DNA of 64,000 bases from Gaertneriomyces semiglobifer (taxonomy: Eukaryota; Chytridiomycota; Chytridiomycetes; Spizellomycetales; Spizellomycetaceae). The notes beneath the pieces were generated by a model. It searched no databases, was not told the origin of the DNA, and was given only the letters and a program-made list of their open reading frames with translations. Below are positions 13,736 through 48,643 of this stretch, one piece after another (the first letter of the stretch is position 1; each line of letters starts with the position of its first letter). The stretch spans positions 124,001 through 188,000 of the forward strand of contig JAHLKF010000026.1 in assembly GCA_025558075.1 (NCBI GenBank), given 5' to 3'. The position numbers and the translations under genes are program-made.

Positions 13736-16080
13736 ATGAGCCTGGCAAGGCAACGGATCATTGCAAGGGGTATTTCAACAGCTGCGATCCTTCAAAGCGC
13801 ACCTGCTACAAGAGCGGCTGCAGTGACAGAGACCATAGGTTCCTTTCCTCCACACCTTCCCATACCGACCATTACTCGGCCTCCAAGTAAGATGCTCACT
13901 CCGAACAACGGGCACACTGTCGCGGATGCCCTAACAACAACCAAGGAAACCATGGTCAACGGTTACAAGGTTTTGAAGAGCAAGATCGCCAACCAAGGTA
14001 ATTGTCTGCAGTGGATTTACAAAGCTTTCCGGCTGTTCCACTGATCCTAGCTTCGTGTTCTAGGCACAGGCTTTGCTCAGCCTCTACGATCTCGCCTTCG
14101 GTTGCGCGGACTCGTCCCAACAACTGTTGAAAGCCTTCAGCAACAGGTGGACCGTGTCATGACATTCCTAAATACTCTGGAATCGCCAATTGAAAAGTAT
14201 TGTTACTTGTCGCGATTAAAGAGTGAAAATGTGACCCTGTTCTATCGCGTGGTTCTGGATCATTTGCAGGTGAGACCCTGGGTGCTTTTTTATACATACA
14301 ATTCACAGTGCTGACACTTTTTCATCTCCTAGGAAATTACACCTCTCATATATACCCCTGTTGTTGGAGAGGCGTGTCAAAAGTTTTCGCTGATATATAC
14401 GCCAGGTAAGTCAATCAATACCGATGTGGGCAACAGTCAAGAGCCTCGATCACTCATCTCATCATCATCAAGGTCTTGTCGAGGGACTCTTCTTATCTGC
14501 AGAGGATAAGCCGCATCTTCCCGATATCCTGGACAGCTGGCCATATCCAGAACCCGAAATCTGCGTTATAACGGATGGAAGCCGTATCCTGGGCCTTGGT
14601 GACCTCGGTGTCAACGGGATGGGTATCCCGATCGGCAAACTCTCACTGTATATTGCCGCTGCTGGCTTTGACCCCGCAAAGACGTTGCCAATTACGCTCG
14701 ACCTTGGTACAAATAATGAGCATTACCTAAAGGATCCGTTCTATCTCGGTTCACGACAGAAGCGTCCAAATGATCCCGAATTCTACGGATTTGTGGATAA
14801 TGTGATGACCGCATTAAAACAAAAGTGGCCAAATGTGAGTATTATCACGCACTCTACAGACTTTTGCTCGAACCATTAACTGATATATTCTATAGATGCT
14901 GGTCCAATTCGAAGATTTTTCGTCCGAGCACGCATTCGGCACGTTAGACCGTTATAAGGACTCTCACTTCTGTTTCAACGATGACATCCAAGGGACCGGC
15001 GCCGTGATCCTTTCCGGTTTCATCAATGCCCTCACCATGTCTGGCGTACCCCTTCACGAGCATCGCATCCTATTCTTCGGCGCTGGTTCCGCCGGAGTTG
15101 GTGTTGCGTCTCAGCTCGAAGAACACTTTATTAAAGCTGGCGGTATGGCTGAGAGTGCTGCCAGAGACGTCTTCTACCTTGTGGACTCCAAGGGTTTGGT
15201 CACCTTTGATCGAGGCGATAAATTACCGCAACACAAGACCTTATTCGCCCGCAGAGATAACGATGGACAACAGCTCAAGACTTTGATGGATGTCATCGAG
15301 TACGTCAAACCGACGGCCCTGATCGGACTTGCTAGCCAAGGCGGTGCATTTACACCGGAAGTCCTGAAAAGAATGGGAGAGCTCAATGAGCGCCCGATTA
15401 TTTTCCCACTTTCAAATCCTCTAACGGTATGCAAGTGTTTAACTTCCACCTCAAAATAACAATCATTCTTACAGTGCTCCTTACTCTTTTATAGAACGCA
15501 GAATGCACGTTTTCCCAGGCCCTTCAGCACACAGGTGGCCGCGTGCTTTTCGCATCCGGTACAGCCTTCCCTCCTCAACTCTGTCCACGTACCAAAAAAA
15601 TCCTTGAACCTGGCCAAGGAAACAACATGTACATATTCCCTGGATTAGGTCGGGGCGCTGTGTTGGCGAAAGCGGAACGTGTGTCGAACGACATGGTCTA
15701 TCAGTCGGCTGTTACCCTTGCGCACAGTATGACGTCGCAGGAACAGAGCGAGGGAAGATTATATCCCAATCTGAAGAGGATCAGAGAAATAAGTGCGGAA
15801 ATTGCCAGAGATGTTGTGTTGCAGGCTTTAAGAGAGGTGAGATCAAATCATGGGCTTTCTTTACTCGGGACTTGGAAGCTAAACGGTTTTGTTCTAATGT
15901 TAGGGTCTTGCGCATGAACCTGCTGTCCTTCACATGTTTGATGCGACACCCGGAAAGGCGGTGTCAGAATCTTATTTAAATGATGCGAAGCGTAAAGAAA
16001 AGCTTTTGCAATACGTCCAAGACCGTATGTGGGACCCCGTGTATGAGACGGATGTTGCAACTGTTCGGAGTAGGATCTGA
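13736..16080 (+). CDS. Malic enzyme (NAD(P)-dependent malate dehydrogenase, decarboxylating), mitochondrial
   Basis: The protein has 650 aa in seven exons: 13736-13997, 14064-14269, 14333-14405, 14473-14834, 14896-15426, 15495-15836, 15904-16080. It converts malate to pyruvate and CO2 with reduction of NAD or NADP. Family signatures are CYLSRLKSENVTLFYR, the catalytic-Tyr segment PLIYTPVVGEACQ, VITDGSRILGLGDLGVNGMG, the metal-binding segment VQFEDFSSEHAFGTL with FNDDIQGTGAV, the dinucleotide fold FFGAGSAGVGVA, and PLSNPLTNAECT. The first 80 residues are Arg/Ser/Ala rich and non-conserved (MSLARQRIIARGISTAAILQ), a typical mitochondrial presequence, which favours the NAD form. The size is slightly above the usual 560-620 because of this leader. 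All splice junctions are GT-AG and keep the frame. Confidence 0.95.
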
Positions 16081-16408: not shown

Positions 16409-19400
16409 CTAAGCCGTTCTACTAGGGATGCGGCCCTGCACGAACGATAAACGTGACGGTGTGGTGCCACTGGCGGTTGAAGCTGCAAAGAAGACACTGT
16501 CAGCCAACCACACTCTCAAGTAACCGGTCCAACCAGAATACTGCGAGATGATTCTTACCTGTTTTGGAATGAATCTCGTTGATATACGCCTGCAGAGTCT
16601 TGCTGTTGGTGAAGATAATTGGCAGGCTATAGTCACCAGCCTGCAGGAGCATGCTCTTATCGTTCTTGTCCCAACTGTAAGACGTCATGTGTTCCAAACG
16701 GAACGAGATTCCAGCTACCAGCTGCTGCGAAAACACAAAAACGAATGAGCACATTGACTTCGGCACTTGCTGTGAACGAACAATGTACTCACCTTTTCGT
16801 TCTTGGTGTTACTCGGGGATATGAGAATAATCCCAGCTTGGGTGTCCGTGACGATCGAACAGGGGGTATATTTGCCGGCAATTGCACCTTTCATGTAAAC
16901 TGAACACTGAGCAGGTGCCTGAACGATAGCCAAGTCTTGTGCTGCTTCTTGCGGGCTTCTCTGAGCTTGTGCAACACTGGGTTCTTCGGAAGACGAGGAT
17001 CCTTTGCCGGATGAGACCTTGCCGGCGGTTGATGATCCCATACGACGACTAGTGCGCCTCGTAAAGGTGCGTAAAAAGCTGTCGTTTCCAGATTCAATAA
17101 CCATGGCAGAGTAAAGCTTGGGCCAGAACAGACATATGTTTGTCACAACTCCAGATAACAGAATTCCAGCCGCTTTGAGGTAGAATGCAGTCTGCGATTC
17201 CGTCTGAGGAAGGAACACCACTGGCACTACGATCGCACCAGCAAGCAGCATGACATATGAAGAAGCACCGATCGCTTTACTCTCTCCATACATGACGTCA
17301 ACGTTCCGGGTCAAGAAGGCAAGCACGCAAGCGGTCAACAGTAAGATCGCTTTCCATGCAAGGTTCAAAAAGGTAAGCGGTCTGTTGGCCGCATTCGGTG
17401 AGTCGCAAACCCAGAAACGGCTACCGTCCGTTTCTTTCAAAGTCGGTTCCAATGGAGCAAGGCCAGTCCATAGTGCGTCCAATGTCAATTCAACTGCAAG
17501 CATCCCGAGCGTTAACATAAGCACGTGAATGTCCTTCATCGGTCGCGCTTTTCCTCTGGTGGTGAAGATCTTGTAGATACGCCAGGTTTTGCCGACGAGG
17601 TTGCCCACTGCCAACGTGTACGCCACGCCTCCAACCCACACCTGGGACACGCACAAAGCGGACGAGGGCGTTCCCACGTAGAGGAAGATGAGCGAGTATC
17701 CTAAAATCGTGCCGAAGATAATCAGCTGGCTGAATACAAGGGACGATGCCTTCACTGAACGGGTGTCTCGATATATGGTCAAAAACCCGGCGAATGTAAT
17801 GGAGATTAACATGGCAATGCCGGTGAGCACCATGATAAGAATGGGGACAAATCCAGAGCCAGTCACCCGACCCTTTGGCGATTCTTTTGTTTCAACAACC
17901 ACCGGTTCGCCAACCACAGGAGCCAAAGCGGTGCTGACGACCCCACTGAACGTGGTAAGAGCGGCCTGTTCAATGTACTGGCCACTGGGACTCTTCAAAG
18001 CAACACGGAAAATAGTCACAGGGTCCGCTCGACGAAAGAGGGAGCCGGCGCTTGCAGATGTCTCAAATGACCGAAACTCGACAGTGGCGTTTGTAGAGAG
18101 TTTCTCCTGAATCGTATCCAACAAGTTATCACGATTCTCAGCGGTCGGCGTCCAGGAGTTAGGAAGTGTCAATGTGAGTACATCGCGATTGCCCTTCTTC
18201 AACCCACAGTTGATTCCTTCACGATCGGGAGCCGTGCAATGGCAGAAATTGTTCCGGCAATATCCATAGTCTGACAGGCATCCATTCGAGCAAACGGCCT
18301 TCAAACAAGCTGGGTGGGGGCTCGCAACCAGTACTCGCTCTTCCAATCCCTGCTGCGTGCAGGGTAGGGTTTTGACGTTCAATTTCGTTTGGTAGCGCGT
18401 GGCATCATACGTGGAGATCGCTGGCGCAATCAACAGCTCCTGAGCGCCGACAGGCGCATACAGCTGAATCTGGGCGAACTTCACAGTACCATTGAGTGCA
18501 AACTTTGCGATCGATCCTACCAGTGTTCCACTGTTCTTCAATGACAATCCTAGCTTTGGCAACGCCGTTCGAGGAGGAAAGTAAGTATTGTTATATTTGT
18601 CAACGGCGCGGACTTCTATATCGGCCAGCGTGGCGCCAGATAGAAGCGAAAGTGGACGACTAGGAGTCGCTTCTAAATGGTCCAATCCAGTGGCAAAGTT
18701 ATCCCCCTGCAATGTGGCTTCGTTTCCATTCAACTGTATCTGCGCGAGTGCATTGGTTCCTATGCTGGAATGCTCGCTCTGGGCTTGATAAAGTGCACCA
18801 CCCCTCTGAGCCTTGTTGTTGCTGAACACAAGATTTTCCACGATCAAAGGGTCAAAGCCAGCGTCAACATAGACAGCACCACCATCATTATCTGCCACGT
18901 TGGAATCAAACAATGAATTGAGCAAAGTCAAATAGCCTTGACCAGATTTGGGCGTGTGACGGATGGCGCCTCCCTTTGAGGTTGCGATGTTGTTCCTGAA
19001 GGTAGAGTCGGATACGGAGACACTACCGCTAGATACAATAGCAGAATTTGGGGCATTTCCTTCGAAGGTGGAGCTCTTCACGACCAGTGACGCTTGACTA
19101 TCGACTACAATTGGATTTTGGTTTGCCGCGAAGTTAGAGTTTTCAAGGGTTAACGTTGTCCCCGCGGTTACACGCATCAAGTCCTTCCGTAGGGAAGCAT
19201 TGTCTAAGGATCACATCATTAACAGGGACGTTCGATGAAAGCGAACCGGTAGATGGAGAGAAGAGCATTACCTAGGAAATTACTCTGAGTAATTTTCGCA
19301 TTGGCCGAGCGAATTTGAAGGAAATCTGTTCTTTCCGCTTCATTCCCAGCAAAGGTGGCGCGATCGATTGCGATGCTACTGGACGCATCCACCACTAACG

Positions 19401-21506
19401 TGCTGTGAAACGTACGCGAACCGATGATGCTTGTTGTAGACAAAGAACCCGCAGCGTTGTTGCGCAAGTTGATGAAGGAACCTCGCTCAATGTGGGAACC
19501 TGTAATTCCTAGAGTCAGTCGATAGATAGCACAGGCCTGACAACACACGCCTTCTTACCTGTAAAGGTCGAATCAATGACGTTAAACTGAGAGTTATCGA
19601 CATCCACAAAGCTGCCGGCGGTTCGATATCCGTTATCTGGTTCAACATGAAGGTTAAGGAGCATTCGATGAGTTAAACGCGAACACAGTCGCACCTTCGA
19701 AATGGGAGTCATGAATATCCAATGTGGAGCCATCCACCACGGAAAACACACACTCATTCCTCGCTTTTGAAGGTAATACAGATAGTCAGTACAACCGCGG
19801 TATCCAGTAGACTTTCAGTAATCAAGCACCTACCGAACACGGTATCTGACATTGCAAAGTTCGATTTTGAAATCCGTATACACTCGGGGGCAACGTTTCC
19901 TTTTTCACATATTGAGTCATTACCTGATCAAAACTCCTACGTGACACCGACTCCTACCTTCCATCCGGCTCTGATCCATCATAATCTCGGCCTCGGCGCC
20001 GATAGCGGTGTGCACCATCAAGTCCATTACGTTATCTGTGATGGAACGCACAATCAATCACGACGGCGCCATATATGATGCGACGTATTAACAGACCTAT
20101 AATGTTTACGTTTTCCATTATCAATTTGCTCCCTGCCTGTAACCGCACGAGAGAGCGCCTTAACATGTCGTTCGTTGGGTCGGGCCCAACTGCCATATTT
20201 CCAGCAATCGTGACGTCGGTGAACTTGCTATTCCCAATTTCGAGACGGACAAGATGCTCGCGCAGCATGTTACCTGTAAAATAACAAGCCAGTGAGCGCG
20301 ATGCACTCAAGTTGGTAAATATCACTGATGCTGACCTTCAAACTTGACGTTCTTTAGCGTCAAACCGCCGGTTTGAAACTCAGGGGTATCTTTTCCATTG
20401 CTCATTTGAAGTGCGATAAGCGCCGAATAGTGCTGCAATGTCGGTGCGCCTATGAAATCGAAATCCTCGACGAGAAGGCTTCCAAAATTTCCTCTCAGTA
20501 CCGACCCGGTTCTGGTATGCATGCCCATTGCGGATCCGCCTTTAACAACACCAGAAGTCATGCCATAAAGCGTAGTAACGAGCCGCGTATCTGTAAATGA
20601 TCTTCAGTAACGTTAACGAAACTGACCCCAGCACCGAGGTTGAGATGGTTACCCTTATACGTGGTTCTATAGGAGTGGAAGTGGGCTGGGCGCGCGGGTA
20701 TCGCTGAATCGATGGCACCCACACGGAAATAAACATGTGAGTTGGACCCACCAACATCATCAAGTTCGCCTATCCGAAGATGAGAATGATTAGCATATCA
20801 GATCTATGTTACTAATGAGGGTAACTTGCGCCTGACTAACCCTCTACAATGCAATCGGTGATATTCAAAATCGTGTTTGTTCCTTCGAGTCGGACTCCAA
20901 ATGACGTATTTCTCGCAAGCGAAATGTTTATTCCTGTAAATTCAAGATATGTGTTCACACCGTAAATGTTCTCAGTGAACGTGTAGTAAGGTGTCATCTC
21001 CTCGAGATCGGAAAGTTGATCTGGGGCAGCCTCAATCTTCACCGTGCCAGGTGACTCGGCGACATTTCGCATAGAGAAATTCCCGATGGGTCGACCAATC
21101 CCGTAATTATTACTTTCATCTTTGTCTTGAATGGCTGTAATGGGGTAGGTGCCGGGAAGGAAGGTAACGGTCGCTTCCGTATATTCGGGAGAGTTTGCCG
21201 CGGCGAACTCAATGACATGATCCCAAGCTATTAAACTTTGTTAAGGAAGGTAACAGATTGAGCAACATTATAAATGGAATCGTTGCTTACCGTCAGTTAC
21301 ATCCTTAAACAAAGCATTCGGCACGTCGTTTGACGCTAGAGTGGCATCGACGGTAACTTCCACCTGAGCCACAGCTGACAACAGTGTAAGTCAGCATGTT
21401 AACTGACATTAGCTCAACACTTTATAGGTCCCTCCTATCCCTTACCCTGGACTTGTGGTAAAAGCTGCACGCACACAAGCAGAAATGATACAAAAGTCAA
21501 ATGCAT
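16409..21506 (-). CDS. Beta-helix ectodomain class C 7TM receptor (GABA-B-like core) with PH-like tail, copy 1
   Basis: Many exons; resolved ones include 21446-21506, 21291-21374, 20841-21227, 20653-20769, 20336-20590, one starting at 20273, 16793-19203, 16559-16724 and 16409-16482. Order of parts: signal peptide (MHLTFVSFLLVCVQLLPQVQ); a long extracellular region of short repeating motifs (GTTLTLENSNF, VVKSSTFEGN, SVSDSTFRNN, GGAIRH), typical of a right-handed parallel beta-helix; an EGF-like cluster (CLSDYGYCRNNFCHC); a juxtamembrane domain of about 100 aa; then seven membrane segments. The 7TM core has class C marks: Cys before TM3 (CVSQVWVGG), the intracellular KTWRIYKIF, an extracellular loop Cys (WVCDSP), TM6-side LAFLTRNVDV and IGASSYVMLL, like GABA-B receptors. 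After TM7 the tail is Ser rich, then a PH-like domain (YMKGAIAGKYTPCSIV through AYINEI). It would be a plasma-membrane G-protein-coupled receptor; the ligand is unknown. TATAAAAGG on the minus strand lies about 90 nt before the ATG. Confidence 0.88.
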
Positions 21507-21744
21507 CGTTAGAGAGGTGCCACTATACGGAGTAGCTGACGGCTACAAAGCGCTCGGGCAGCTCTAGAAGAAACTCTTTAGGACTTACCTTTTATATTGT
21601 CTCGCTGGGGCGCCATGTGAATAGCGATCAGGGCTCGGATCTTTTTAGATCGCGTGGGACACTTGCAACAATAGCAGGCATATCCAGTTCAATACCAGCT
21701 TTCGCTGGCTTTACCTGCGTCGGCTTTACAAATTCCGAGGTCCA

Positions 21745-21769
21745 GGATCCAATCCTAGGCTATTTTTAG
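21745..21769. promoter_or_regulatory. MADS-type (MEF2/Rlm1-like) box with adjacent GGATCCAATCCTAGGC motif, left copy
   Basis: CTATTTTTAG at 21760-21769 matches the consensus CTA(A/T)4TAG bound by MEF2-class MADS proteins, which in yeasts include Rlm1 of the cell-wall-integrity pathway. The 16-mer GGATCCAATCCTAGGC directly abuts it. The box lies 254 nt from the minus-strand ATG at 21506. Confidence 0.5.
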
Positions 21770-22545
21770 CTGCTGAGCTGGTTCCACTTATTGATACCCA
21801 GGGGCTTGACGGAGCCTGGGGGTTGGCCTTTATGATTTATATAGGGCGACGCAGGATCCGCTGTGAGACAGTTCGTCTAAGCCTAGTGGACGTGGGGGCG
21901 GCCAATATTAATGGTACTTACAGCCATGGTACGTCGCAGAAGCAAACTTAAATTCAATCCAACAAGACCCTGAAATCGCCGAGGAAAGCAAATGAAAGAG
22001 AGATACCTGATTTTTGTCAATGTGGGTGGTGAGAAAGAGAAAGTGGTGGTGCATTGCGCGTTTTCGCAGGACGGTAGCTGTTGGGCTTCCACTTGCTTAT
22101 ACATTAGATCGCGGACTGCATGCCCCAGTCATCAAACATTGGCCCAACCCCTTTCGGGAGGTGATCAAAGAGTAGGATGTGCATGAAGAAAGCATCCCTC
22201 AGTTGTTAACAGCAAGCGCTGTGGTAGCATACATTCAAGGATGCAGCCATTTCATTTCAGAGCACATATTCAAACACAATTAAGAAGTGATCGTTATATC
22301 TCACTCTTAGACTTTTCCTTAACGGGTAGCCGACTGGTGGATGTCAACCATTAAGTATGGCTGGTGCATGTTGGTGGTGCATCTACGCGTGGAGGGGCCT
22401 TAGAAATCGGTGCTGCTACGTCTTCCACTGAACCTGCATTGAACGGATCCACATCTGGCCCGCGGCTAGTTTCAACAGGCCATCCTGAGCGGAACCAACC
22501 ACATTGGTGCCTATTCCTGTGATCGGACCAGACCGATGGCGGCCA

Positions 22546-22579
22546 CTAAAAATAGTGACTGCTGGGATCCAATCCCAGG
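22546..22579. promoter_or_regulatory. MADS-type (MEF2/Rlm1-like) box with GGATCCAATCCCAGGC motif, right copy
   Basis: CTAAAAATAG at 22546-22555 is the reverse complement of the class seen at 21760. GGATCCAATCCCAGGC follows at 22564-22579, 15 of 16 bases identical to the left copy. The box ends 254 nt before the plus-strand ATG at 22809, mirroring the left spacing. Confidence 0.5.
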
Positions 22580-22808
22580 CCATCGGGTCGTCGTGAAGGG
22601 ATGTTTAAATAAGGTATGAATACAAATGGACGCAAACACATCATCCCTCAGGAACACCACAGCGTTGGCTCAAATTCCTGCCTAGCACTCTCACACCCTG
22701 CTCTTAAAGGACGTATCAAGCGCTCTTCCCGCTTAGAAAGTGTTGACGACGCACATTGAAGGCAGCGCTTACCGCCAAGTACTATTAGATACCCTCATCG
22801 ACGACAAC

Positions 22809-25800
22809 ATGCGGTGTAAATTTGCTCTAGTTGTGTTCGCCTTACTCAACTGGCTGCCACTTGTCTTTGCTTATGCCGATGTCGAGTATTGGGTGGACTG
22901 TGCGGCAACTTCCTCCGGGGACGGAGTAAGCGAGTTGAGCCCGTTTGCGTCGCTTGACGAAGCATTGGACGCTACATCTGACTTTATGGATACCATGGGG
23001 GGAGTTGTGCAAATCAATCTAATGTCACCCGGAGAATACCCGTTACAAAAAGAAGAATACTATTTCTGGGGATTAGGAATTTTCGGGTGGGGAGATGCTC
23101 TTACCATTACGGGTGCACCGACATCATGGGTGGGAGACCAGGGTCCTACCATTGTCCGTGGTGGTCCCGACTCCAAGGTTCAGTTCACCATGGATGGGCT
23201 CGAGGTCACGATGACCAACCTCAAGTTCGGCTTGCCTGCACAATCCGGAGAAGCCAGTGGGACCTTGTTTTATTGGCTTTTCCTTGAATATCACATGTTC
23301 TTGTACAACAATTTCGAGAACGTTACCTTTGAAGGTAGATACCCATGCCTGCTCAGTAGTGTGCGCAATGACATTACATTTACTTGCTTTCCGATGATAG
23401 GCAGATCCAACGCGAATTTCTTGACGAAGGACAATCTGTTAACGATCCAGTTTTACACCGAAGCTTTCGACGACTCAGTTTCACCAAGCACTTTCAACAC
23501 ACTAGATTTCGTCGACTGTACCGTACTACCAGGTGAGGCTGATCAACGTTTAGCATTGGTACATGTGTGCAATACGCTCATTTGCAGCTTAGGTGTCGTG
23601 CTATATCCGAGCCTGCATTACGCGTATACAACGATATCGAACTTACAGCTACAGGGTAAGCTCACGAGGAAACGCTAATTCACGCACTTATCTCATTAAC
23701 TTATTGCCCAACGAAGGTCCCTCCGCGGCTATCGTGAGGGCTGGCTTCGCAGACCTGACCATCAAGGACAGCCAATTCATAAGTAAGTCCTCGTCATCCT
23801 ATCCACGCATGGCCTTCTCAACTCATCACCGCACTGCAATGTAGACCCGTAAGTTCGAATATCGGGACCACACATAATCATGACCACTTACCATAGCGCT
23901 TGCCTACCATCAGCCTCTGTGTGGAGCACGCTTCAGTTGTTATGGTAAGTCCTTCGTATATGGCTGTCGTGTGGCTCGTTCCGCGTGGTTACGGAATGTG
24001 TTCCTTAGCAACGTGGGGGAATCGGGCCGGTCACCATCGAAAACGTACTCTTTGAACGAAACGACGTTTCGGACCCCCTACTCTGGTGCAATAGTATCGT
24101 AACTAGAAGAGCAAGTGAACTCGTTTCATTGAAAGATGTCATCATCAAAGGTACAGTTCGCTACTCTGGGCATCGTTTTCTCATTTTAAACATTTCATTT
24201 TAGACTGGAGCGGAAGCATTTTGGACGCCGATTATGGATTAACTGATCTTAAAAACGTCACCATTTTGAGTAAGTGGGAACGTCTCATCCATTGTTACGT
24301 ACCGCGTGATGACCCTATGTAATTCAGATAGCAGAGCGGATTATCCCAATGAAGCGTATTTGCAGTATGACGCGGACACTTTGCCGAGACAGAAGTATTT
24401 CATAAACATCAACGCCTCGGCCGAAGTGATTATCGAGGGAGGCCAGTTTGAAGACAACATTGGGCGGACCCAAGTTGCAGGAATCTTGGCTATTAGTGAT
24501 TCCGTCCTTTTGAACCAACGCACGGAACCCGGCAATGTCTGGGAACATGAGGCGCATTTTTTCAGTGTGGTTGAAGCGGGACAATTTGACTTAACGGGCA
24601 CTCAGATTAACGCAACAACGAAGTCGTATTCCACTGGGTTACTGCTTTCAAAAGGCACATCAAAGACCATCATGGATGACGTGATTATATCTGGTTATCA
24701 TTGCAAGGATGACTGCATTCATGTGAGCGGTATGGCAGAGTTCAAGGTTGGAAAGAGTACTTTCAATGATATATCTACCGACGGATCCGTTCTCTTCTGT
24801 GAACGTTCAGACATCGACGACAATTGGCCTACTACACGTATATCTGAATCTACATTCACTGGCATTCACAACACTGTGCTGCGAGGTTCGCTGGCTTCGG
24901 TTGAGGTTGAAGAGAGTACGTTTTCAAACTTTCAAGGGTCGTCCTTGCTTGTACCGCAAGACGCGAGCCATTTTACCTTTATGGATTCGTCTTTCTCAAA
25001 TGGCAACACTCCGGGTGATGGCGCTGTGTTGAGCGAATGCCATGGTGTAGTCGAATTCACTAACGTCGATTTCATTGGGAATCACGCGGATGGCCGCGGT
25101 GGTGCACTCGCTGTCAATGTAGCACCAGGCGCATGTGACATTAAGCTCATGAACAGTGTGCTCAGAGAGAACACAGCTCGAGTTGGTGGCGGCATGTTCA
25201 TTGACTGGTTTACCGAATCGCCTGCGGTTCTCATGGAAGACGTCACGTTCGACAGTAATGTCGCTGAACTGTACGGTGGCGGTTTATATACGCTGGCGAT
25301 GAAAAAGATGTTGCCCGCCGACGCTAGCGTCACCTTAATCGGGAATCAGGCGCCTTATCTACCTCAGCGCGGCACGTCAGCTTCAGAATTCGAGCCCTTC
25401 GACACCTGGTCGGAATTGAGGGTGTTATCGGGCGAGCGATTACCTACGTTTGGTATCAAAACTCGGGATGCGTTTGGGCAATATGTTCCGTTTGACCAAG
25501 AGAACCTTGTGATCGTGTCCTTAAGTGTATGGAACGAAGCTGGCACTGCATTGACTACCGATGCAACTTTGTCTGGTCAGATTTTGGAGGTTGTGCAAGA
25601 AGGAACTCGCACTTTCGAAGGTATGGGCACTGTTTTGTCATCATGCGGCAATTTCGTTTCTGCTCACGCAAGATCTTAGGTTTGCGCATTTACGGTAAAA
25701 GTGGGTCTTACTTGATCAAACTTGCGGACGACACCGCCTCTGGGATTTCTGATTTTGAGCCCGTGGTGCTGCCTGTGCGAATTGTCGATTGCACTTCTCC

Positions 25801-28148
25801 AAAGCAAATGCTACCATCGTTCGACACTGGCGAACTCGAGTGCCGCCTTCCTGTGTGTCTCCGTGGTTGTTCTTCACCAGCAGGAGTGTGTGTTGCTGAT
25901 GGTAATTGCACGTGCGTCGACCGTTCATATGAAGGATATGCCTGTCAATTGAAGAAAGGAGCGAATGACAGTCTAACAATGTCCTTTGATGCCGGCAACC
26001 CGGTTTTTGAGAACGCATTGGACACGTTCGATTTCTCGGTTACCAGCAGAGATGCGATGATACAGCATTTGGAGGGTCTGTATGATGGGCAATATGGCGT
26101 TATCTTCCGTGATTTCTGGACGGGTAGTCAGCGGAAGCTGACTCGCCGCAGTGGAGGAGATAGCACGGTTTATTTGAAGTTTTCCTTGGTTGACAAAGTG
26201 GGAAGTTACCTCGACTATCGGCAGCTACAGTCTGCAGTAGGCGTTTTGAAGTCGAAACTTATCTCTCCCGATACGTCTGGCTTGCAAGTGACGACCGGCG
26301 CATTGGCTAATACTGACATTACCGCTGTTGGCTCTATAATCGCAATCATTTGTTGCGCCCTTGGCGTGGTCACTGTGACTGCGTTAGCCGTTTTGCGTTT
26401 CCGTAAAGGAGATGGTCCAGCTGTTCGGGGTACCTCTCGCCATCTTGATTTGTATGTTGCACTGTGCTTTGCTGAACCGATTCGATGGATCTGACCGTTG
26501 TTTATTCAGGCTATTGGCATTTGGCCTGGCGAACTTGTTTGCGTTGCCGATTACAGATACTATGACACCAACGGCTGCCTCTTGCAGGGCACAAATTTGG
26601 ATGATACCGCTTTCGTTTGGGATCATTGTGCCGTGAGTGCTTGATGACGGCTGGTTACTGGTGAACAATTATCCTGACCATTGCCTGACAGAACTCTTGT
26701 GGTGAAATCCTTTGGCCAATTTACTCGCCGTAAGAATAAGATTGCCTTACGGTCCGACATTCCCTTGAGATCGCAAAAGCTTGGTGCCGCTTTCATTGGT
26801 GTCATGCAAGTAATGTACTGGGTATGTGTCATCGGGATGGTGTTCGAATTCGTTCCAAAGCTCATGAATTGTCATATCTCCCCAGGTGCTGGTGATAGTG
26901 TGGCAGGTAATTGAGGCGCCTGCCCCGCAATTGACGTTCTCCAACAACGAACGGTTCTGGACTTGCACGGGCACAACGGAAAAGCAGCTAGGGTTCATTA
27001 TAACTTTCGTTGGAATTACCGGCCTTCTTTTAGTCGCTGCCTGTCGGTTGGCCTATGATACCATCACGGTGGGATGGCCAGTCCCAGCTCTGGAGGACCG
27101 CCTTTTATTCGCCAATTCGGCCAACATGGTTGTACTGGGAGCAGTTGCGACAGGGCTTCTTTTGTCTGGGGTTATGAACGGATCCACCCAGTTTGCAATC
27201 CGTGTTACAGTTGCGCTCGTGGTTGCCAGTTTTCTCACATCATCAATGCTGGTCTACAAAGTGTGGTTGCTCCGCCTCCCCGATAAGACTGAGGATCACC
27301 TTGAACAGAAAATCAGGAGCATGGCATCGGTGGGTTCTCGTTCCTTTGGAGCCGCTGCTTGAGTGGTAACTGACTCAATGGCGTGTTTAGAAAGGACAGA
27401 CCTCCAATATTTACCAAAAGGTGAAATACTTGCCTTGCAAGCCTGAATCTGGAATTGTATGGCGTGCCTCGCAAATTTCGTTACTGCGTCAGTACTTGGA
27501 GATAACGGACATCGATACAATGAAGGTTCGTGATCTCAATAGTTGCATGGTATTATTTGTCTTCTAACTCTGCATATCTGCAGGGCCGTTTCTTTCGCGT
27601 GAGCGATCTCACTGCTACTGCCGATATAGCAAGTAATTGCGTTATAGTGGAGCTACCTGGGGAAGACCCATTGCGTATCCAGCTAGAAGACAACAGAGAG
27701 GTCGAAAGTTGGGTGAGGCGCCTGAATGAATCTCAAGCCAGCCTTGCGAGGGTATGTTCATCTGTTGACTTTACTCCAACGGTGGACGAAAGGTTAATTG
27801 TTCTGAACAGAAGGGCAATCGTATATCGGTGGGGATTCCGGAAGAGGATGGTGGGGAGAAGAAAGAAAATGTTCACGCCGGTGTTGCTAAGGTATGGTCA
27901 TACTTTGATGAACTACTACAGACGACCTAGTTTATTCATTGACATTGTCATCAGTCCAACCGTGTCCCTGCGGTTATTACGGAAGAAGGTGGCCGCACCG
28001 CTGGCGAGAGTCCCGCCACTGGCGAGAATGACATTGTGCAAGAAGTGAGTCCCGCCACTGGCGAGGATGACATTGTGCCAGAAGTGAGTCCCGCCACTGG
28101 CGAGGATGACATTGTGCCAGAAGTGAGTCCCGCCACTGACGAACTGTA
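22809..28148 (+). CDS. Beta-helix ectodomain class C 7TM receptor with PH-like tail, copy 2
   Basis: Multi-exon gene starting at 22809 with a signal peptide (MRCKFALVVFALLNWLPLVFA). The extracellular part has the same plan as copy 1: a beta-helix with repeats such as FTFMDSSFSNG, VEFTNVDFIGNHADGRGG and VLMEDVTFDSNVAELYGGG; an EGF-like cluster (CLRGCSSPAGVCVADGNCTC); a juxtamembrane domain with a basic RKLTRRSGG; and seven membrane segments from about 26310 to 27270. Class C marks are weaker than in copy 1: Cys and Trp before TM3 (CRAQIWMIPLS), loop Cys (FWTCTGTT). After TM7 comes a PH-like domain (KVKYLPCKP to the helix VESWVRRLNES). The last exons are 27811-27891 and 27955-28148 (phase-0 introns), giving an acidic tail with 13-residue repeats. 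The ectodomain introns I could resolve are phase 1. Protein identity to copy 1 is low, so the duplication is old. Confidence 0.85.
28012..28145 (+). repeat. 39-bp tandem repeat in receptor C-tail
   Basis: About three and a half units encode SPATGEDDIVPEV (first unit SPATGENDIVQEV, last truncated SPATDEL) at the C-terminus of the 22809-28148 gene. Unit length is a multiple of three, so the frame is kept. The last two full units are almost identical at DNA level, so expansion was recent. Confidence 0.9.
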
Positions 28149-29569
28149 ATTCATTGCTTCAATTCTTGGGTTCGATCGTTTAAAATTTTTTGGAGCGCTC
28201 CTGCGAGTATAGCAGTTGAAAGGATACCCGTTAAGTAGTCAAGAGCAACTCGGAAGATAGATGGATAACTGCATGTATTGCATAGCCCTTGTGTGATTGA
28301 CTGGAACTTTATTACCCATAGACTCAATATCGTCTGATACTCATTAGGGACCTGTAGACTACTCGTCTGATGCGTTACTGAATACTTGCGTGCTGAGCTC
28401 TGAAGTCCTCTCGCTAGCACTTGGCAGCACCTGCAACTTTACAAAGGCCCCAACTGCGGCGGTAACCAGTCATGCCGGCAGCGCCCAAGCCAGCTGCACC
28501 AGTGGACTGCAACATTACACAGGTGCTACCCGTTGCCATTGTGCCGCCATAGGAGCTCATGAAAGCCTGCTGCCCATGAGGCCGCTGCGACTCCATTGGC
28601 TCCGAAACGAAGCCATGACACGATTCCTAGGGGTGGCCGAGGCCTCCTACCCTTTGGCAATTCCAACGGGCATAGCGATGGAAAGTCTTGGTTCTTGTCT
28701 AGCTTCAACAACATCGTTCCTACGACGACGAAGCTGTGTGGTTACAGCATTACCGGATGTCGTAATACAACTGCGAAGAGCAAGGCCTCATGCTGTTCAA
28801 AAAGCAGTTGACCTCCCACCATCCACTGACAAAGACTGGAGCGCCTTTCAGTTGTTTCGGACAAAGGGAGAACCTAGCGGATACCCTCCTCTAAAATCCA
28901 AAGTAGCCAACTTGCGAGTGCTTTCGGCGTTATCAAGGGCACCGGCAGTTGCGAGTGAGCTATTGCGAACCTCTGAAGGTATCCCTTTCCTCTCGCTCAT
29001 TTCAAGAAGAGGCTGACGAAAGGGGTTCCACAGTCGTTAATGAGTTGACGAAGGTGTTCCAGTGCCCGTGTAATCCTGTCAATAGACCCATCCATAGCGT
29101 TTATGATGCTTGCTCCATTAAAAGTTGACACCGTTTCATGGCGACCTGTTGTTCAAACCACAGTGAGTCAGTCATGAGCGACCACAAGGCAGTGAGAGCA
29201 CATTGTCATCCATCAAGCTGGTCTCAGATAGAACAGTAACCACTGGATCCTGATCCATCCACGTTCAGCGGCAACCATGGCATTGAAATGATGTCCTGTG
29301 TGTTTTGTGAAAGAGTGTTCACTGTTCAGTGCAAGTGTTGCGGGGATGACTCCTGGTCCGCTTCTCGTGTCAAACTTACTCGTGTGATACACCGGCGAAC
29401 GGTTCGACATGAATTCCTTGTGTGGCTCGCAAATGTTGGGCCGCTTTTTTATGTTTTTGAAAGGCATAAAAGGCTTGAGCAGACTGGAGCGTTGATCTGG
29501 ATTTTACATCGGGTGGTTTGACATCAAGACGAGCACCATTTGGTAGACAGAGGATAACTGGTGGCAATC
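28149..29569. other. Intergenic region without a supported gene
   Basis: A 208-codon frame at 28390-29016 (+) and overlapping frames on the minus strand are present, but none shows a domain, signal peptide or splice support. I see no RNA gene. It may hold a decayed gene. Confidence 0.4.
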
Positions 29570-31030
29570 ATGGCGGCAACAAGTGAACCAGAGTCCAAGA
29601 TGAGCACTTTGAAACGGAAAATGTCGACACTACGCAGAAAGCCAACGAAGGCCAATGACAAGGAAGTGGAGAAGCAACCTGACCTGTCTGACGTGGCGGG
29701 AGGCGACTACTTTACAACTAAAGACGGCTCGGATGTTTACTTTAAGATTTGGAAGGTACGCTGCACCTGCAATATGGCCACTCAGACGTGTGTTTGTGTG
29801 TGCCTTGTTAGGGCATCGAGGCACAATTCACATACTAACTTGTGCTCTTTAGCCCACAGTAGACCCGGTAGCCACTGTGCTGGCCATTCACGGGGTTGGT
29901 GAGCATTGCAACCGTTACAATGACATGTTCTCCGCTTTTGCCGCCGACGGCATCGTCGTGCGAGCTTTGGATCTCCGCGGTCACGGTCGCACTCACTGTA
30001 AGAATGTGAATAACGGGAGCATTCAAGGCTACCTGAATGGTTTCAAATCCATTTTCGAGGACCTTCTCCAGCTCAATTCGCTCGTCATCGACGGTTTGCC
30101 AGCAGCTGGAGAACTCCCTACATTTGTCTTTGGCCACAGTATGGGCGGTCTCCTCGCGCTCGCCCTCGTCAACGAGCATGCCGATCGTATCCCGAATTTC
30201 CGTGGTGTAATTGCTCAAGCACCTTGCATCCGCACCACAAGGACTTTCCCTGCCGCCGTGTTGAACCTCATTAAATTTCTCTCTCCACTCGCATACAAGC
30301 TGCAGGCAGCTCCCGGCCCTTTGCGCCCTGAATATATTCTTGATGAGGAATTTCATGAGGGTTTCCTCGGTGATCCTTGGCGGCACAATTTCATGACGCT
30401 GCGGACCTTGCGTGACTTTATTGTCTACGGCAGGAAACTGGAACGGGGTGCAGCAAACTTTACATGGCCTGTTCTTATCTATCACGCCCAAGGAGATGTA
30501 TTGACAGACTGCAATGCCAGTGAAAAGTTTATCAAGGATGCCGCAAGTGCAGATAAGACATTGCGCATCTTTGTGAATGCAAAGCACGAACGTGAGTGCC
30601 GAACCTTTGTTAAATGCGTATACGTCATGTTTAGCTGAGACGCATTTGTTTATCAGTGCATTATTGCTCTTCCATTCGAGCTGAGGTTACCTCGGAATAT
30701 ATTGCCTGGATGCTTAAACGAGCGACCGCAGTACCGCCGACACCACCAAAGACCGCCAGCGAGCCGCCCAAGGACCCCGTTGTTGTGATTTCTGTGAAAT
30801 CCCCTGAAGTCTCTGCTTGTAAGCTCAAGAGCCCTGAAGCGACTGTTGTTGAAGAAGAAACCCCTGCACCAACACCCGAGGAAGAGAAGCACGCTGACCA
30901 ACCGCCGCCGGTGGAAAAGGATGAACAACCACCAATGCCGTTGGAAAAGGATGAGCTACCACCAGCGCCAGTGGAAAAGGAGCCGGCCAGTGAGAGCGAA
31001 CAGACCCCGCCCGCTGTTCCGACAAAGTAA
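29570..31030 (+). CDS. Monoglyceride-lipase-like serine hydrolase with Pro/Glu-rich tail
   Basis: The protein has 432 aa in three exons (29570-29755, 29853-30591, 30657-31030). An alpha/beta hydrolase of the monoglyceride lipase type (yeast Yju3 class), it would cleave monoacylglycerols to glycerol and fatty acid. Visible signatures are HGVGEHCNRYNDM (oxyanion region), DLRGHGRT, the nucleophile motif FGHSMGGLLAL, the acid segment YHAQGDVLTD and the His in KHELHYC. Two features are unusual. The N-terminus has a basic Ser/Thr/Lys-rich extension of about 45 residues (MSTLKRKMSTLRRKP). The C-terminus adds about 100 residues of low-complexity Pro/Glu/Lys sequence (PPVEKDEQPPMPLEKDELPP). Typical members have about 300 aa. 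The start is the ATG of MAATSEPESKM. It is convergent with eIF3e. Confidence 0.9.
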
Positions 31031-43137: not shown

Positions 43138-46100
43138 TCAAGGTGTCATACTTAAATCACCGCTTTCCGACATTTCCATGACGCTTCTTCTCCGCCCTGT
43201 ACTCCCGCTCTGAGGCGACACAGGTAGTAGGGAGGCGCTCATTGCCTTTTCTTCTGCCCACTTCGAGTTCACGTGGATCGCGGAGAGCTGTGAATTGGTA
43301 AGGTTTGCCATGGACGAACCCCGCCTTGAAGCGACCTGGCGCAGCGCAGACGGAATGGCAAGCTCGACGAAGGAACTACGGCGAGTGGCGCCTTGCTCCA
43401 CGTCGAGCACTTTTTCCTTGCCCTTGTCGCTGATTTTATGACCAGTAAAGCTCTGAGAGTCTCCAAGGCGCGGGTCCGGTAGCACTGCGCGGGTTGCATC
43501 TCGATCAAGCCCGTCTTCATCGTCAGAATCATGAGACTCATCCATGCCAAATCCGTTTTTACTTTTCCGTCGTGGTTCCCGTTTTTCCTCTAACGGTCCC
43601 AGAATTCGGAGTTTCCAATACATCAGCCATTTTCTCACCCTTGGAAATGCTAATATTATACAACATGCTACGCCGGCACATAACCCGCCAAGCTCGAGTT
43701 TGTAGAGTACACCTTTGAGGTACGAATTGTTATTGGTGGTGAGGCCAACGGTCTGGTTCTGCGTGAGTGCGTGATCACCCAGCGCGAGTCCGGCAAGCAA
43801 GAACAAAATCAACAACAGCAACTGCTCAATGCGATTATCCCGATTCTTCCTCCAGGGTCGGACAAGGAATGTCAAAACAAGGACATTGAAGAAAGCCAGC
43901 AGCAGTGCAGCAATGGATTTGCTAACCTATTTGATTTCCATAGATGGTCAAATCGCCAATACTCTTACGCACAAGGAATGGCAGAAATGAAAGAACTTAC
44001 TGGATCAGATACCGTGAACACATCCAGCAGAACGATCACGACCTTTCGCAATAAGAATACAAACTCGTAATACCAGTATCTTGGTCGAAAATCTGCGTAT
44101 ATTTGCCCAAGCGCTTCGACCCAGAACTGAGCTCTGGAGCTTCCTCGTGAGCCTGCCCACAATGCCCACTTCAAGAAGGCAAGCAGCAACACAGGCAATC
44201 CGATGACCCAGAGCACCAAAAGCGTCCACGCGATCGCCCACCACGTGTGATGAACGCCTTCCCGGCACGGTTGGTCGGGCGCTTCCGTAACAACCACTCG
44301 GCCCGCTATGGTGCTACAGCTGAGAAGCCGCATGACCACTCTGTGAACTGCTAGTTAGCGCTAAGTGACGCGGAAGTGAGGTTGATCACTTGAGACTGAC
44401 CTTGACACAAGCAGATACGCCCAGAGGACAACAAACAAAAATGCATTGATCCATGCAATAACCATTTCCTTAGGCATTTTGCCTGAAGGTCTCTCAGCAA
44501 TATTGGACTGGTTAAATCGTGCTTTCATCCAAAACCAAAACCGTAATAATAATCCCCAAGCAACGCATGCTAATAGTGCACAGAAGGGAATGAAGCCACC
44601 AAAGAGGATGCGTCCCAAATTGTTGATGCGCAAAACGCAGTTGGTACCGGTAAGCTTATTGATCCAGTCGAACGCGAAATTGCCGATTGTGAGTGTGATG
44701 GCGTCGGCCGAAGGCGATGAGGGAAGGAGAATATTGGAGAACTGTACAAAAAATATGAGTGTCGTGAACACGGAGGAGCTGCATAGCGAAGGGAAGCGTA
44801 AGAGAACGCCGACTGCTATGAAAGAGGTGGCGATGGGAACCAAGAGCCAGGCTGGCGCATCTTGATCACAGCGTTCGCAAATGCCGGTACCGCGCCAGTC
44901 GCTAGGAAAGTAGCCGGGTCAGCGCGACGCACACGCTACTATGAGATGCACAATAATACCTGCTGCATACCTGTAATTTTCCTCGCATTGGGAGCATAAT
45001 ATTCCTTGTCGGTGTGGTGCGCAGAGCGAGTTGCCGACACAGTTTCCTGAATCACACCGCCAAACATCTGGAATGTCCGTGGATGGAGTGTCGGGGTCAA
45101 TCCAGTAGCCCGGATCCGCGGTGACATTTGAGCCTTGGCAAGTAGCTCCCAGCGGACATGGAAGGCAGTCTGAATTCGGGACTCTCGAAAACGAACCTTG
45201 GCAAAGGCTGCATCTGTAAGGCTTGGTTTCAGGATCCTCGCTGTTTTGATAACCTACAGCAATACCTAGTCAACTGTCTGCGCGCTTATACGTGAAGGAG
45301 AAGGACATACCAGCTCCACAGCTAATTATCTTCACAGGGACCGATATTTGAGGAAGGGAAGCGCACTCGGCCAAGATGGAGTAAGTCCGGTTAAGTAAGC
45401 CAACTGCTGTAATGGGCCCAAACTCGACGAAGCCATTTTCCACAGTACGTTTTGTTAAGTGATTCCCAATCAATAGGAGATCATTGTTGGGATTGTCTTC
45501 TGCGGCGTCCGAAGTACCATTCAAAGCAGGATCATTCGCCGTCCGCGTGAGGAGATAGACAACCATTTGGTCTACCGTATCGGTGACGACATTACCGAAG
45601 GCATCGTGCAAGGTGAAGTTGAGAAAAAAACTATCCTTCGGTGAGATCTCAATTTTGGTTGGATCAGGAAACAGGTACTGAGGTGATCCACCTTCTTCCG
45701 GGCCATATGACGCTGTATTGTTTGCAATGTGACACTGGGACCTTTTGCCTGGTTCATCACGGTATACGATCTTCCCATTGGGTGAGACGCAGTCCAAGAG
45801 TGATTTCTCGCCGTCATAGTAAACACCGCCTCCACCACCGCCCAAATTCATAATATCCGGCTGCTCTGTGGTGCCATTGGGCCCCTTTTGCATCTGTGCA
45901 AAGTGGCCGGCAATTTCCTGCGCAGACATTTTTGCCATTCTCAGAACGATATCCACCCGTTGTGCCAAGTTTTCTGATATGATGCTGTTCGTATCCATGC
46001 GATTTCTGGCCGTTTCCAAAAACAATCCACCGCCAAAGCGTGCTATGTTCCGTACAACTTTTGAGGAGCGTAAATACAGCGGTACGATAGAATCAACAAA

Positions 46101-48107
46101 GATGCCCCCGCCTTCCTCAGCAACGTTGCCCGTGACAGTGGTATTCAAAAGGTCAACGTGCGCATCGGGACGCTCCTCTTCCTTCATCGACCACACCGAA
46201 TGCGTTGCAAGTAGTAAACCCCCTCCATGTACGTGCGCTATGTTCTCACGGATAACGCTGCTATGAATCGCTACCATATCGCGCGTCTCAATGGCTATCC
46301 CGCCTGCGGTCGAGTTGGCCACATTCTCAGCAATCGTAGCGCCATGTAATATCAGACGCGCGTTGTCTGTCACCTTAATAGCGCCCCCCGAAGCAGATAC
46401 CGTATTACGGACGAAGACAGTCCCATTTCCGTGAAATTCTGAACTGACACGGACAGATATAGCTCCTGCATCCTGGTCGCAGGTGTTCTCCGCGAATACC
46501 GAGTCGACATCATTCACAACTACCGCATCAGCAATTTCCATTCCACCGCCCAATCTGGGAGATCCATTTCCTTTGATCAAACAGTTTCGCATTTTCACCT
46601 TTGCATTTAGACGTCCACTGAGCGCGCCACCGCCTGCAACAGCGACATTGTCGATCAGTGTACAATTCGTCAAGGATACGTTTGCAGCTATCTCTGCGGC
46701 AAAGGCGCCGCCTGTTCCGCCTGCTCGGTTGCCGGAGAGCGTACAGTCGACGAAAGTGGGGACAGCATTCGCAGTTACTTCCACTCCGCCTACAAACAGC
46801 ACAAAGGCCAAGTTAACATGTGCAGCTCCGATTACCACGGATGATTCGTCGTACCTCCGTTCGACGTCGCAAAGTTCTGGGAAATTTCGCAGCGCGTGAA
46901 AAGGTTAACACTATCAGCATAATGATAAATTCCTCCTCCCAGTTCTGCCCGGTTATTTGTAAATACCGAATCAAAGAATTCGGTTACGGATCTACAAGGA
47001 TATTTTAGAAAGTTGATCGGAACTCAGGAAAAAGAGGTGATAACCTACGTTCCGCCAGAATCATATGCACCGCCATATTGACTCCAGTTACCATCCCACA
47101 CACAGGACTCAAATCTGCCCTTGCTGAAATTTTCTGTAACCAGTGAGCCACCATACAACCTCGCACTCTCATTGAAGAATGTGCATTCCCGGAAGATTGG
47201 AGTTGCGAAATCGGTTAACCACACCGATCCACCTACGCAATGCATGAGTACGTCGCACATGTCACGGTAAACAAAACAAATCGAACCTCCAAGGGCAGCC
47301 CAATTCGACGAAAACTTGCATTGCTCAAAACTTGGATAGGCCTTTCCCCCAATGTATACTGCACCGCCTGCACCGCTCTAATGCCGGGCATGATGTCAGT
47401 TCCGTGGGTGGCGGTGGAGCATGTGCCCACACACAAACGCACCTGTTCTTGTTGTAGCGATGGACTCGCTTGATCAGACGTTTTACAATTCGTGAACACG
47501 CAGTTTCGGAAGGTCTACCTAGCAATCATTAGGATGCGTTTGTAGGAAGTTCATAGCAATCTACGCTCACCGGTGCCGCATCCTCATGTATCTGCACGCA
47601 CCCTCCCGTGCTCGCATAACCATTTCGAAAAGTAATTCCCTCTATTTCAAATCGATTGTGGTCCTCTGTCAAGTTGTGCTTCACTTCCGCCAATGTGGGC
47701 GACACGGGGTTAGCGGTAGCGTTCGTGGTTACGCTGGCGAAGATGAGTATTCTATTGCTGCCTGAAGCGTCAAAGATGGTCTTCTCAGGGCCTTCAAGCG
47801 ATCGAACCCGGGCCATCGATGACGGGCGATGGTGAATGGTGAGGCCGATATTGCCGGGACCAGTGTAGGTGCCAGGGTATACCACGATTTCTCCGCCGCC
47901 GCCGGACAGGCTTGCAATTGCAGATCCTAGGGTCCCACATGGCGCCTCCCGCGTAACGCCGCATCCAGGCTGAGTTGAACCTGTCGGCGACAAGTATATT
48001 GTGGTTGGCTGCGTAGGTTGGGACCATAGCCGAGGGAGTAGTGACAGAAAACTTTGGAGGAACAGGAAATATGAGATAAGGCTAGAAGGCCTCCGTTGTC
48101 GTTGCAT
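43138..48107 (-). CDS. Large beta-helix membrane protein with Cys-rich (GCC2/GCC3-like) region and multi-TM C-domain
   Basis: Multi-exon gene, probably about 1,400 aa. Signal peptide (SYFLFLQSFLSLLP) at 48107 downwards. Extracellular opening TIYLSPTGSTQPGCGVTREA and GGEIVVYPGTYTGPGNIG is the start of pectin-lyase-like/beta-helix domains. Then come many helix coils with GGG/GGA motifs (CTLSGNRAGGTGGAFAAE, VAGGGALSGRLN, LGGGMEIADA, FGGGLFLETA), as in Chlamydia polymorphic-membrane-protein type repeats. A Cys-rich segment follows (YRCSLCQGSF, CLPCPLGATC, CRSD-like spacing, ILCSQCEENYR). At least seven to eight membrane segments follow (VPIATSFIAVGVLL to GLCAGVACCIILAF), including the conserved-looking FRPRYWYYEFVFLLRKVVIV. 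The C-terminus is cytoplasmic, Ser/Asp/Arg rich with ATRRSSFVEL-type phosphosites. The TM part is unlike the class C 7TM at 16-28 kb and resembles the C-terminal channel-like domain of giant GCC2/GCC3 proteins of algae, oomycetes and amoebae. Confidence 0.85.
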
Positions 48108-48643
48108 TCTTTCCTATATAGAAGCATTTGGTGATTTGAAACCTTTCCAGTTACGAAGCGAGAAGTGTTTTATAGTAGACACCACCAGAATCGACAATCA
48201 GCGATCGGTGACCGAACATAGCAAGCAGTCCACGTTGACATTTTCCAAAGAATACGCCCTCCGATGATCCTGTTCCTTCTCGTATTATGCTGGCCATTGT
48301 TCTTCAAGTCATCAATGGTAGTTACCCGTAGGAACGACGTAGGGGTTGGTCGCAATTCCTTGGTCCTGGAATCATTGGAAAACACGCGAAGGCCCACATC
48401 GGAGTTTCAATCCCGCTTACGTGAGCACAGCCTGAGGGTTCGTGAAAGGGACGGCCCTTCACCTACGCTAATTGAAGGCGGGCAAACGACGGGTACGAGG
48501 GGTGGATGAATCCCGGTCCGGCAGGCCGTCGTTCGGCGTGAAAATCCGCTGAGTTTGGCTGGATTGGAATCATTATCCTGTAAATGCTATGTGCCGGCAT
48601 TCAACAAGTGGTGCTGAGCGGTGCCATTTCTTGGTAATGCGAT
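48108..48643. other. Divergent promoter region, beta-helix protein and RBR ligase
   Basis: No gene supported. A TATATAG element at about 48114-48120 is only about ten bases from the minus-strand ATG, too close to act as its TATA box, so the start of that gene or its promoter is uncertain. Confidence 0.45.

Follow-up and report, generated by a model that had tools for sequence, protein, structure and literature searches.

We examined a 64,000-nucleotide stretch of the 20.9-Mb genome of Gaertneriomyces semiglobifer, a Spizellomycetales chytrid (C26:124001-188000, hereafter the window, whose own positions are used below), and found two divergent, head-to-head receptor genes, LEFT (A-type, minus strand, 21506..16409) and RIGHT (B-type, plus strand, 22809..28149), separated by 1302 bp that presumably serve both as a promoter region (21507..22808, with limits taken from the gene models). 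The divergent pair described in an original prediction, which was made from the DNA letters alone, is therefore real, and the coordinates given there, 16409..28148, are correct within one base. LEFT comprises 14 exons encoding 1419 amino acids (21446-21506, 21291-21374, 20841-21227, 20653-20769, 20336-20590, 20097-20273, 19958-20035, 19834-19899, 19695-19763, 19559-19636, 19272-19508, 16793-19203, 16559-16724 and 16409-16482), modelled from GT-AG splicing and homologue-guided frames (P0001-P0005). RIGHT comprises 17 GT-AG-spliced exons encoding 1456 amino acids (22809-23334, 23401-23532, 23593-23655, 23717-23782, 23845-23848, 23914-23944, 24009-24150, 24204-24269, 24328-25620, 25680-26451, 26510-26632, 26692-26821, 26886-27329, 27391-27525, 27584-27751, 27811-27891 and 27955-28149). 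The deposited protein P0010, from the same gene as RIGHT, matches our model up to the first tail exon, 4-nt microexon included, apart from skipping a short ectodomain stretch and ending early; for the last exons of RIGHT the model relies on the reading frame, the splice sites and P0011, an orthologue.

Both proteins have the same domain order, which is kept in their orthologues: an N-terminus that is signal-like by hydropathy, a beta-helix, an EGF-like module, a juxtamembrane domain of about 110 amino acids, a class C seven-transmembrane (7TM) core and a cytoplasmic tail. The LEFT beta-helix (18685..21374, minus strand, approximate limits), in whose region the introns are of phase 1, matches Pfam Beta_helix at 8.1e-13 and Chlam_PMP at 2.6e-9, and AlphaFold2 (AF2) predicts strands in its membrane-proximal coils (P0001 residues 1-130) at a block predicted local distance difference test score (pLDDT) of 87-97. 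In RIGHT, Chlam_PMP reaches 27.4 bits on the frame containing exon 9 and 18.2 bits on the whole protein, below the cut-off of 20.6, and the whole-protein scan gave no Beta_helix match; the source database lists PF13229 for P0010. We found no flytrap family (ANF or periplasmic-binding) in Pfam at E<=1 in either protein, and no lyase family at E<=1, the matches being to generic Beta_helix and PMP repeats. These results support the proposal that a beta-helix has replaced the flytrap, with both repeat families above cut-off in LEFT and Chlam_PMP on one frame in RIGHT. Because the coils nearest the membrane resemble the PMP repeat of Chlamydia by profile match, surface adhesion fits at least as well as a carbohydrate ligand, and the ligand may be a surface or wall polymer. 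The EGF-like modules (LEFT, 18206..18307, minus strand; RIGHT, 25841..25945, plus strand, from the cysteine alignment) are called from seven cysteines invariant in all nine aligned proteins rather than from a Pfam match. A single 831-amino-acid open frame of LEFT spans the last, membrane-proximal quarter or so of the beta-helix, the EGF-like module, the juxtamembrane domain and the 7TM core, so the beta-helix and the 7TM core are not separate genes; with the conserved order in the orthologues, this rules out an artefact of joining two genes and sustains the predicted fusion.

The 7TM cores of LEFT (17117..17842, minus strand; 164-169 bits, 5e-48) and RIGHT (26327..27236, plus strand, introns included; 1.1e-16) both match Pfam 7tm_3 above cut-off, which confirms the predicted class C identity. 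The GABA-B-like character also proposed holds for LEFT, whose closest solved structure is human GABA-B2 both by sequence (4.3e-24) and by Foldseek (top match 6wiv_B), while RIGHT has four PDB matches, all to mGlu1, the best at 1.7e-6. Among the best 50 Foldseek matches of the whole LEFT model there are class C receptors only, a comparison that does not address the beta-helix. An identity as an adhesion G-protein-coupled receptor (GPCR) was ruled out, with neither GAIN/GPS nor 7tm_2 matching at E<=1.

Orthologues of LEFT are present in Powellomyces hirtus, Thoreauomyces humboldtii, Geranomyces variabilis and a Fimicolochytrium at 45-55% identity, and those of RIGHT, over residues 620-1350, in Gaertneriomyces sp. 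JEL0708 (87%), P. hirtus (50%) and T. humboldtii (42%); LEFT and RIGHT share about 21% identity over their alignment. Two genera besides Gaertneriomyces have both types, and the two Thoreauomyces proteins come from separate short contigs whose locus numbers are far apart, a placement that is neutral as to pairing. A protein search with the EGF-to-tail region of LEFT returned four proteins, three of them already known and the other a lizard mGluR5. When searching the G. semiglobifer genome with the Powellomyces RIGHT orthologue, we find exons at the window locus and at C24:48255-53136 on the minus strand (RIGHT'), next to which LEFT' lies on the plus strand, with its first matched frame from 53476. 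The start of RIGHT', near 53169, is signal-like and leads into a beta-helix whose opening resembles that of RIGHT (SGDG...PF..LDDAL); this start lies about 300 bp from the LEFT' frame, for which a signal exon was not identified. In a tree of 13 sequences (omitting P0005, with a garbled 3' end, P0011, with a TM5 stretch missing, and P0010, which is the RIGHT gene; paralogues from C6, C7 and C8 only; LEFT' and RIGHT' without the exons between transmembrane segments TM3 and TM4), RIGHT' falls among the RIGHT-type sequences with 100% support and LEFT' joins the LEFT clade at only 63%. Better evidence than this join is the identity of LEFT' to LEFT-type sequences, 37-41% versus 18-23% to the other rows. 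All four class C genes with a beta-helix that were identified in this genome thus fall into two divergent A/B pairs, and one more may exist among the five class C loci read by eye; no other class C loci that we found lie side by side. LEFT' has 37% identity to LEFT versus 61% for the Powellomyces orthologue, which suggests that the A/B pair was duplicated before Gaertneriomyces and Powellomyces split.

Next, we compared the residues through which class C receptors contact G proteins. GABA-B couples through its GB2 subunit alone, in which R577, the residue closing TM3, touches the G protein together with lysines of intracellular loop 2 (ICL2); the same study sees no strong polar role for ICL3 (PMC9360005). 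Aligned to GB2, LEFT has an arginine at R577 and basic residues at the ICL2 salt-bridge places K586, K588 and K590. The TM3-end arginine is present in all six A-type sequences (LEFT, P0002-P0005 and LEFT') and in none of the five B-type sequences, where RIGHT, P0011, P0012, P0013 and RIGHT' have Gly, Gly, Gly, Ile and Tyr, respectively (for RIGHT' as read from the open frame rather than a full model). Among the 13 other class C loci of the genome, 10 have it too (seven by pattern and three, L032, L037 and L038, by eye), the place not having been located in L035, L039 and L040. The ICL3 signature TRxV...ESKxI shows the same split between A-type and B-type, and RIGHT has lost both the ICL2 and the ICL3 motifs. 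The cysteines linking TM3 and extracellular loop 2 (ECL2) are present in both types; since the B-type keeps them, it probably folds without coupling to a G protein. Retention of the coupling arginine in the A-type and its loss in the B-type is the pattern that a GABA-B-like heterodimer would show if a single subunit did the coupling, and LEFT and RIGHT may accordingly dimerise, of which the gene pairing and the motif asymmetry are indirect signs.

The juxtamembrane domains of LEFT (17858..18202, minus strand) and RIGHT (25949..26335, plus strand) belong to one family by alignment. An AF2 model of LEFT residues 871-985 from a ten-row alignment (pLDDT 77, predicted template modelling score 0.66) gives the order beta-alpha-beta-beta-alpha-beta (model positions 8-13, 21-35, 40-49, 62-70, 79-97 and 102-106), and a larger AF2 model gives the same. 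Foldseek returned three matches at E<=0.001 (PCDH15 EC9-MAD12, 7.7e-4; Nup54, 9.3e-4; a carbamoylase, 9.9e-4), and VIA-align scored nuclear-pore chains at 9.2-9.3, PCDH15 at 8.4-8.6, CDH23 at 8.2 and the Gpr126 ectodomain at 6.9. From this spread of matches the fold class is predicted to be ferredoxin-like. Neither protein has a Pfam SEA match at E<=1, and kinship to SEA and MAD domains is a resemblance and not a proven membership. The loop between strands beta2 and beta3 (model positions 50-61, pLDDT <50 at 52-57, and predicted from the model to be exposed) contains a dibasic RR at model positions 57-58, that is, LEFT residues 927-928 (18029..18034, minus strand, context SLFRR-AD), with its counterpart at RIGHT residues 930-931 (26144..26149, plus strand, context KLTRR-SG). 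This Kex2/furin-type (L/I)xRR site occurs in all nine orthologous sequences, where the second residue ahead of the RR is Leu or Ile (in P0003, Leu precedes RRR), in a loop otherwise variable in sequence and in length (18-23 residues). Upstream of the juxtamembrane domain, the same nine ectodomains have 8 [KR]R in 7032 dipeptides (0.11%), a background from which about 2% per loop, and at most 6% for any single sequence, would be expected by chance versus the nine of nine observed. Of the C24 paralogues, RIGHT' has the site (LSRR) and LEFT' does not. Kexin-type P-domains are encoded at two loci of the genome, and a Kex2-type protease would be a candidate for cleaving the receptors at this site.

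We also compared eight cytoplasmic tails by hhalign with a 12-sequence PH profile built from the same genome, using an alignment of four RIGHT-type tails and five shuffled controls per type. The RIGHT-type tail (27391..27751, plus strand, two exons) stands out at P 1.1e-4 (probability 56%, 73 columns, shuffles 0.12-0.44), as do those of C8 (3.7e-4), RIGHT' (8.9e-4) and C25 (1.2e-3), whereas the LEFT-type tail (16559..16910, minus strand, two exons, approximate; fold not established) at 0.012 (shuffles 0.05-0.7), C6 (0.062), C12 (0.11) and LEFT' (0.28) do not. Pfam PH matches one of four RIGHT-type tails at 0.022, a tail that is not RIGHT's own; PF00169 matches none of four LEFT-type tails, one of which has a syntrophin PH model at 0.028, and PDB profile searches with both tail types returned no PH chain. 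The PH-like tail predicted for both receptors is therefore moderately supported in RIGHT and uncertain in LEFT. Such a tail, called unusual in the original prediction, is not particular to this pair, as the flytrap-type C25 paralogue has a borderline Pfam PH match directly after its 7TM core (25.9 bits in the genome search and 23.2 in the protein scan, cut-off 25.1); at this locus, L036 6362-7330, half of the class C 7TM and the PH match share an open frame, and the ectodomain is ANF. As the C25 and C8 tails also align with the PH profile, such tails may be a wider trait of class C receptors in this genome. Within the tail of RIGHT, 3.5 copies of a 39-bp repeat (28008-28142) encode an acidic C-terminus (SPATGEDDIVPEV repeats).

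We propose that LEFT and RIGHT are the A and B subunits of one heterodimeric, protease-cut class C GPCR of zoosporic fungi that senses a surface or wall, a reading which, taken whole, we consider evenly balanced between right and wrong. The long right-handed beta-helix of each subunit, built from PMP-type adhesin repeats, would bind a surface or wall polymer and would be connected to the membrane by the EGF-like module and the ferredoxin-like, SEA/MAD-like juxtamembrane domain. During secretion a Kex2-type protease would cut the beta2-beta3 loop at (L/I)xRR, and the fold would hold the halves together as two chains, like Notch and human GPR126. Binding to, or a pull on, the beta-helix would then alter or separate the juxtamembrane domains, and B would relay the signal to A, which alone keeps the G-protein-contact residues and would activate G-alpha, while the PH-like tails may anchor or tune the receptor at phosphoinositide membranes. 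Going further, and with considerable doubt, zoosporic fungi could, independently of animals, have built on a class C framework an adhesion receptor that is cut into two chains and fires when a zoospore touches a surface; such a receptor, if real, would stand among class C receptors as the equivalent of the adhesion GPCRs and of Notch. Should both the cleavage and the heterodimer be borne out, fungi too would have a cut ectodomain and a non-coupling partner, two devices known best from the GPCRs of animals, and would have them in a family whose ligand sensing is otherwise flytrap-bound. The gene pairs supply named candidates, together with a cleavage site and a division of labour that can both be put to the test.

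Several other explanations were weighed against this heterodimer. Two independent homodimeric receptors, head to head by chance, uncut and each with its own ligand, would be in keeping with the mGlu and calcium-sensing receptors, class C members described as acting as homodimers (PMC9360005), and with the low identity between LEFT and RIGHT; we consider this unlikely, given a second divergent A/B pair in the genome, the coupling arginine lost from every B-type sequence and RR conserved within an otherwise variable loop. That the RR is a mere basic surface loop and not a processing site is in line with its absence from LEFT', but its presence in every orthologue, with Leu or Ile just before the basic stretch and against so rare a background, makes this rather doubtful. 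Nor is RIGHT likely to be a receptor in decay towards a pseudogene: its 7TM is divergent and its branch long, yet the frame is intact over 17 exons, identity to orthologues in three genera is 42-87%, and the TM3-ECL2 cysteines are retained, so that we regard this as very improbable.

Chytrids of the Spizellomycetales often occur on plant debris and pollen, which favours another possibility, namely that the beta-helix is a sugar sensor binding soluble or wall polysaccharide. This was the reading of the original prediction and is also that of the authors who described class C receptors with a pectin-lyase fold in plant-feeding gut fungi (PMC5168858), whereas the pair matches generic Beta_helix and PMP repeats and no lyase family. 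We judge a sugar sensor to be a serious possibility, if somewhat short of probable, and it is compatible with both the pairing and the cleavage of the proposed heterodimer.

Among known systems, one parallel to the pair is GABA-B, with GB2 as the closest 7TM to LEFT and two unlike subunits of which one couples; it differs in having a flytrap ectodomain and no beta-helix, EGF or cut domain, and RIGHT is nearest to mGlu1 rather than to GABA-B. PCDH15 and CDH23, whose MAD domain is the best extracellular fold match and likewise stands directly before the membrane, are single-pass mechanotransduction cadherins, unlike the 7TM pair. In MUC1 and Notch2 the cut falls within the beta2-beta3 loop, where the furin site of human GPR126 also maps, and the halves stay together, according to the available text of one report (PMC6954182). 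GPR126/ADGRG6 further resembles the pair in its long adhesive ectodomain and in a ferredoxin-like SEA domain with a basic protease site in that loop (PMC6954182), but it has an adhesion-class 7TM and a GAIN domain, neither of which is matched in the pair, and its SEA domain is not membrane-adjacent. mGlyR/GPR179 is described as having an EGF-like module in a class C ectodomain (PMC12716839), with a Cache domain where the pair has a beta-helix. The overall domain plan has been published before: about 30% of the class C GPCRs of gut fungi are reported to carry a pectin-lyase fold, beta-helix repeats and occasionally an EGF-like domain (51+24+32; PMC5168858), and these Neocallimastigomycetes receptors, like the pair, combine the 7TM with a beta-helix and EGF-like ectodomain and no ANF (PMC5168858). 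As described in the available text, they come with no mention of a juxtamembrane domain, dibasic site, PH tail, gene pairing or subunit asymmetry (PMC5168858). We found no fungal class C receptor with a Kex2/SEA site, gene pairing or PH tails in the accessible parts of the open-licence literature, and the literature searched names no known receptor for surface recognition by chytrid zoospores. As far as these searches go, the combination of A/B pairs occurring twice over, a partner without the coupling arginine and a conserved protease site in a Notch-type loop is undescribed, and it makes the proposed mechanism specific enough to test. The dibasic site, the second pair and the coupling residues lost from RIGHT go beyond the original prediction.

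Finally, we surveyed the class C repertoire of the genome. A 7tm_3 search produced 26 exon matches, which we grouped manually into 15 gene loci; RIGHT and RIGHT' are not among them, so this count is a lower bound. Flanking sequence was surveyed at all 14 loci besides LEFT, and in the nine whose main frames were scanned with Pfam we observe ANF (three), TctC (one), Big_9/cadherin-like/LamG-type (three), Kelch (one) and Beta_helix (one, on C24) ectodomains, while the other five, read by eye in partial frames, have a flytrap- or binding-protein-like look. This variety indicates that the ectodomain is freely exchanged on one 7TM chassis, as has been reported for other early fungi (PMC3251606, PMC5168858). 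At L037 (C1:578000-586700), Kelch repeats (1.2e-26) lie shortly upstream of the 7TM exons. At L039 (C40:55800-64500), flytrap-like frames are accompanied by an EGF-like cysteine stretch, CDRGCDHGTCVAHDTCVC, with SRRS ahead of it by eye, and judging from this locus an EGF-like module before the 7TM may not be confined to beta-helix receptors.

Within the window, an apparently multi-exon gene at 43138-48113 (minus strand) has a signal-like start, matches to Beta_helix (2.9e-9) and Chlam_PMP (3e-7) and several hydrophobic segments downstream with no 7tm_3 match; this beta-helix membrane protein, encoded 15 kb from the pair, is of another kind than the receptors. The pair's neighbours, a malic enzyme (14394-15917, plus strand) and a serine hydrolase (Hydrolase_4, 29853-30638, plus strand), belong to ordinary metabolism.

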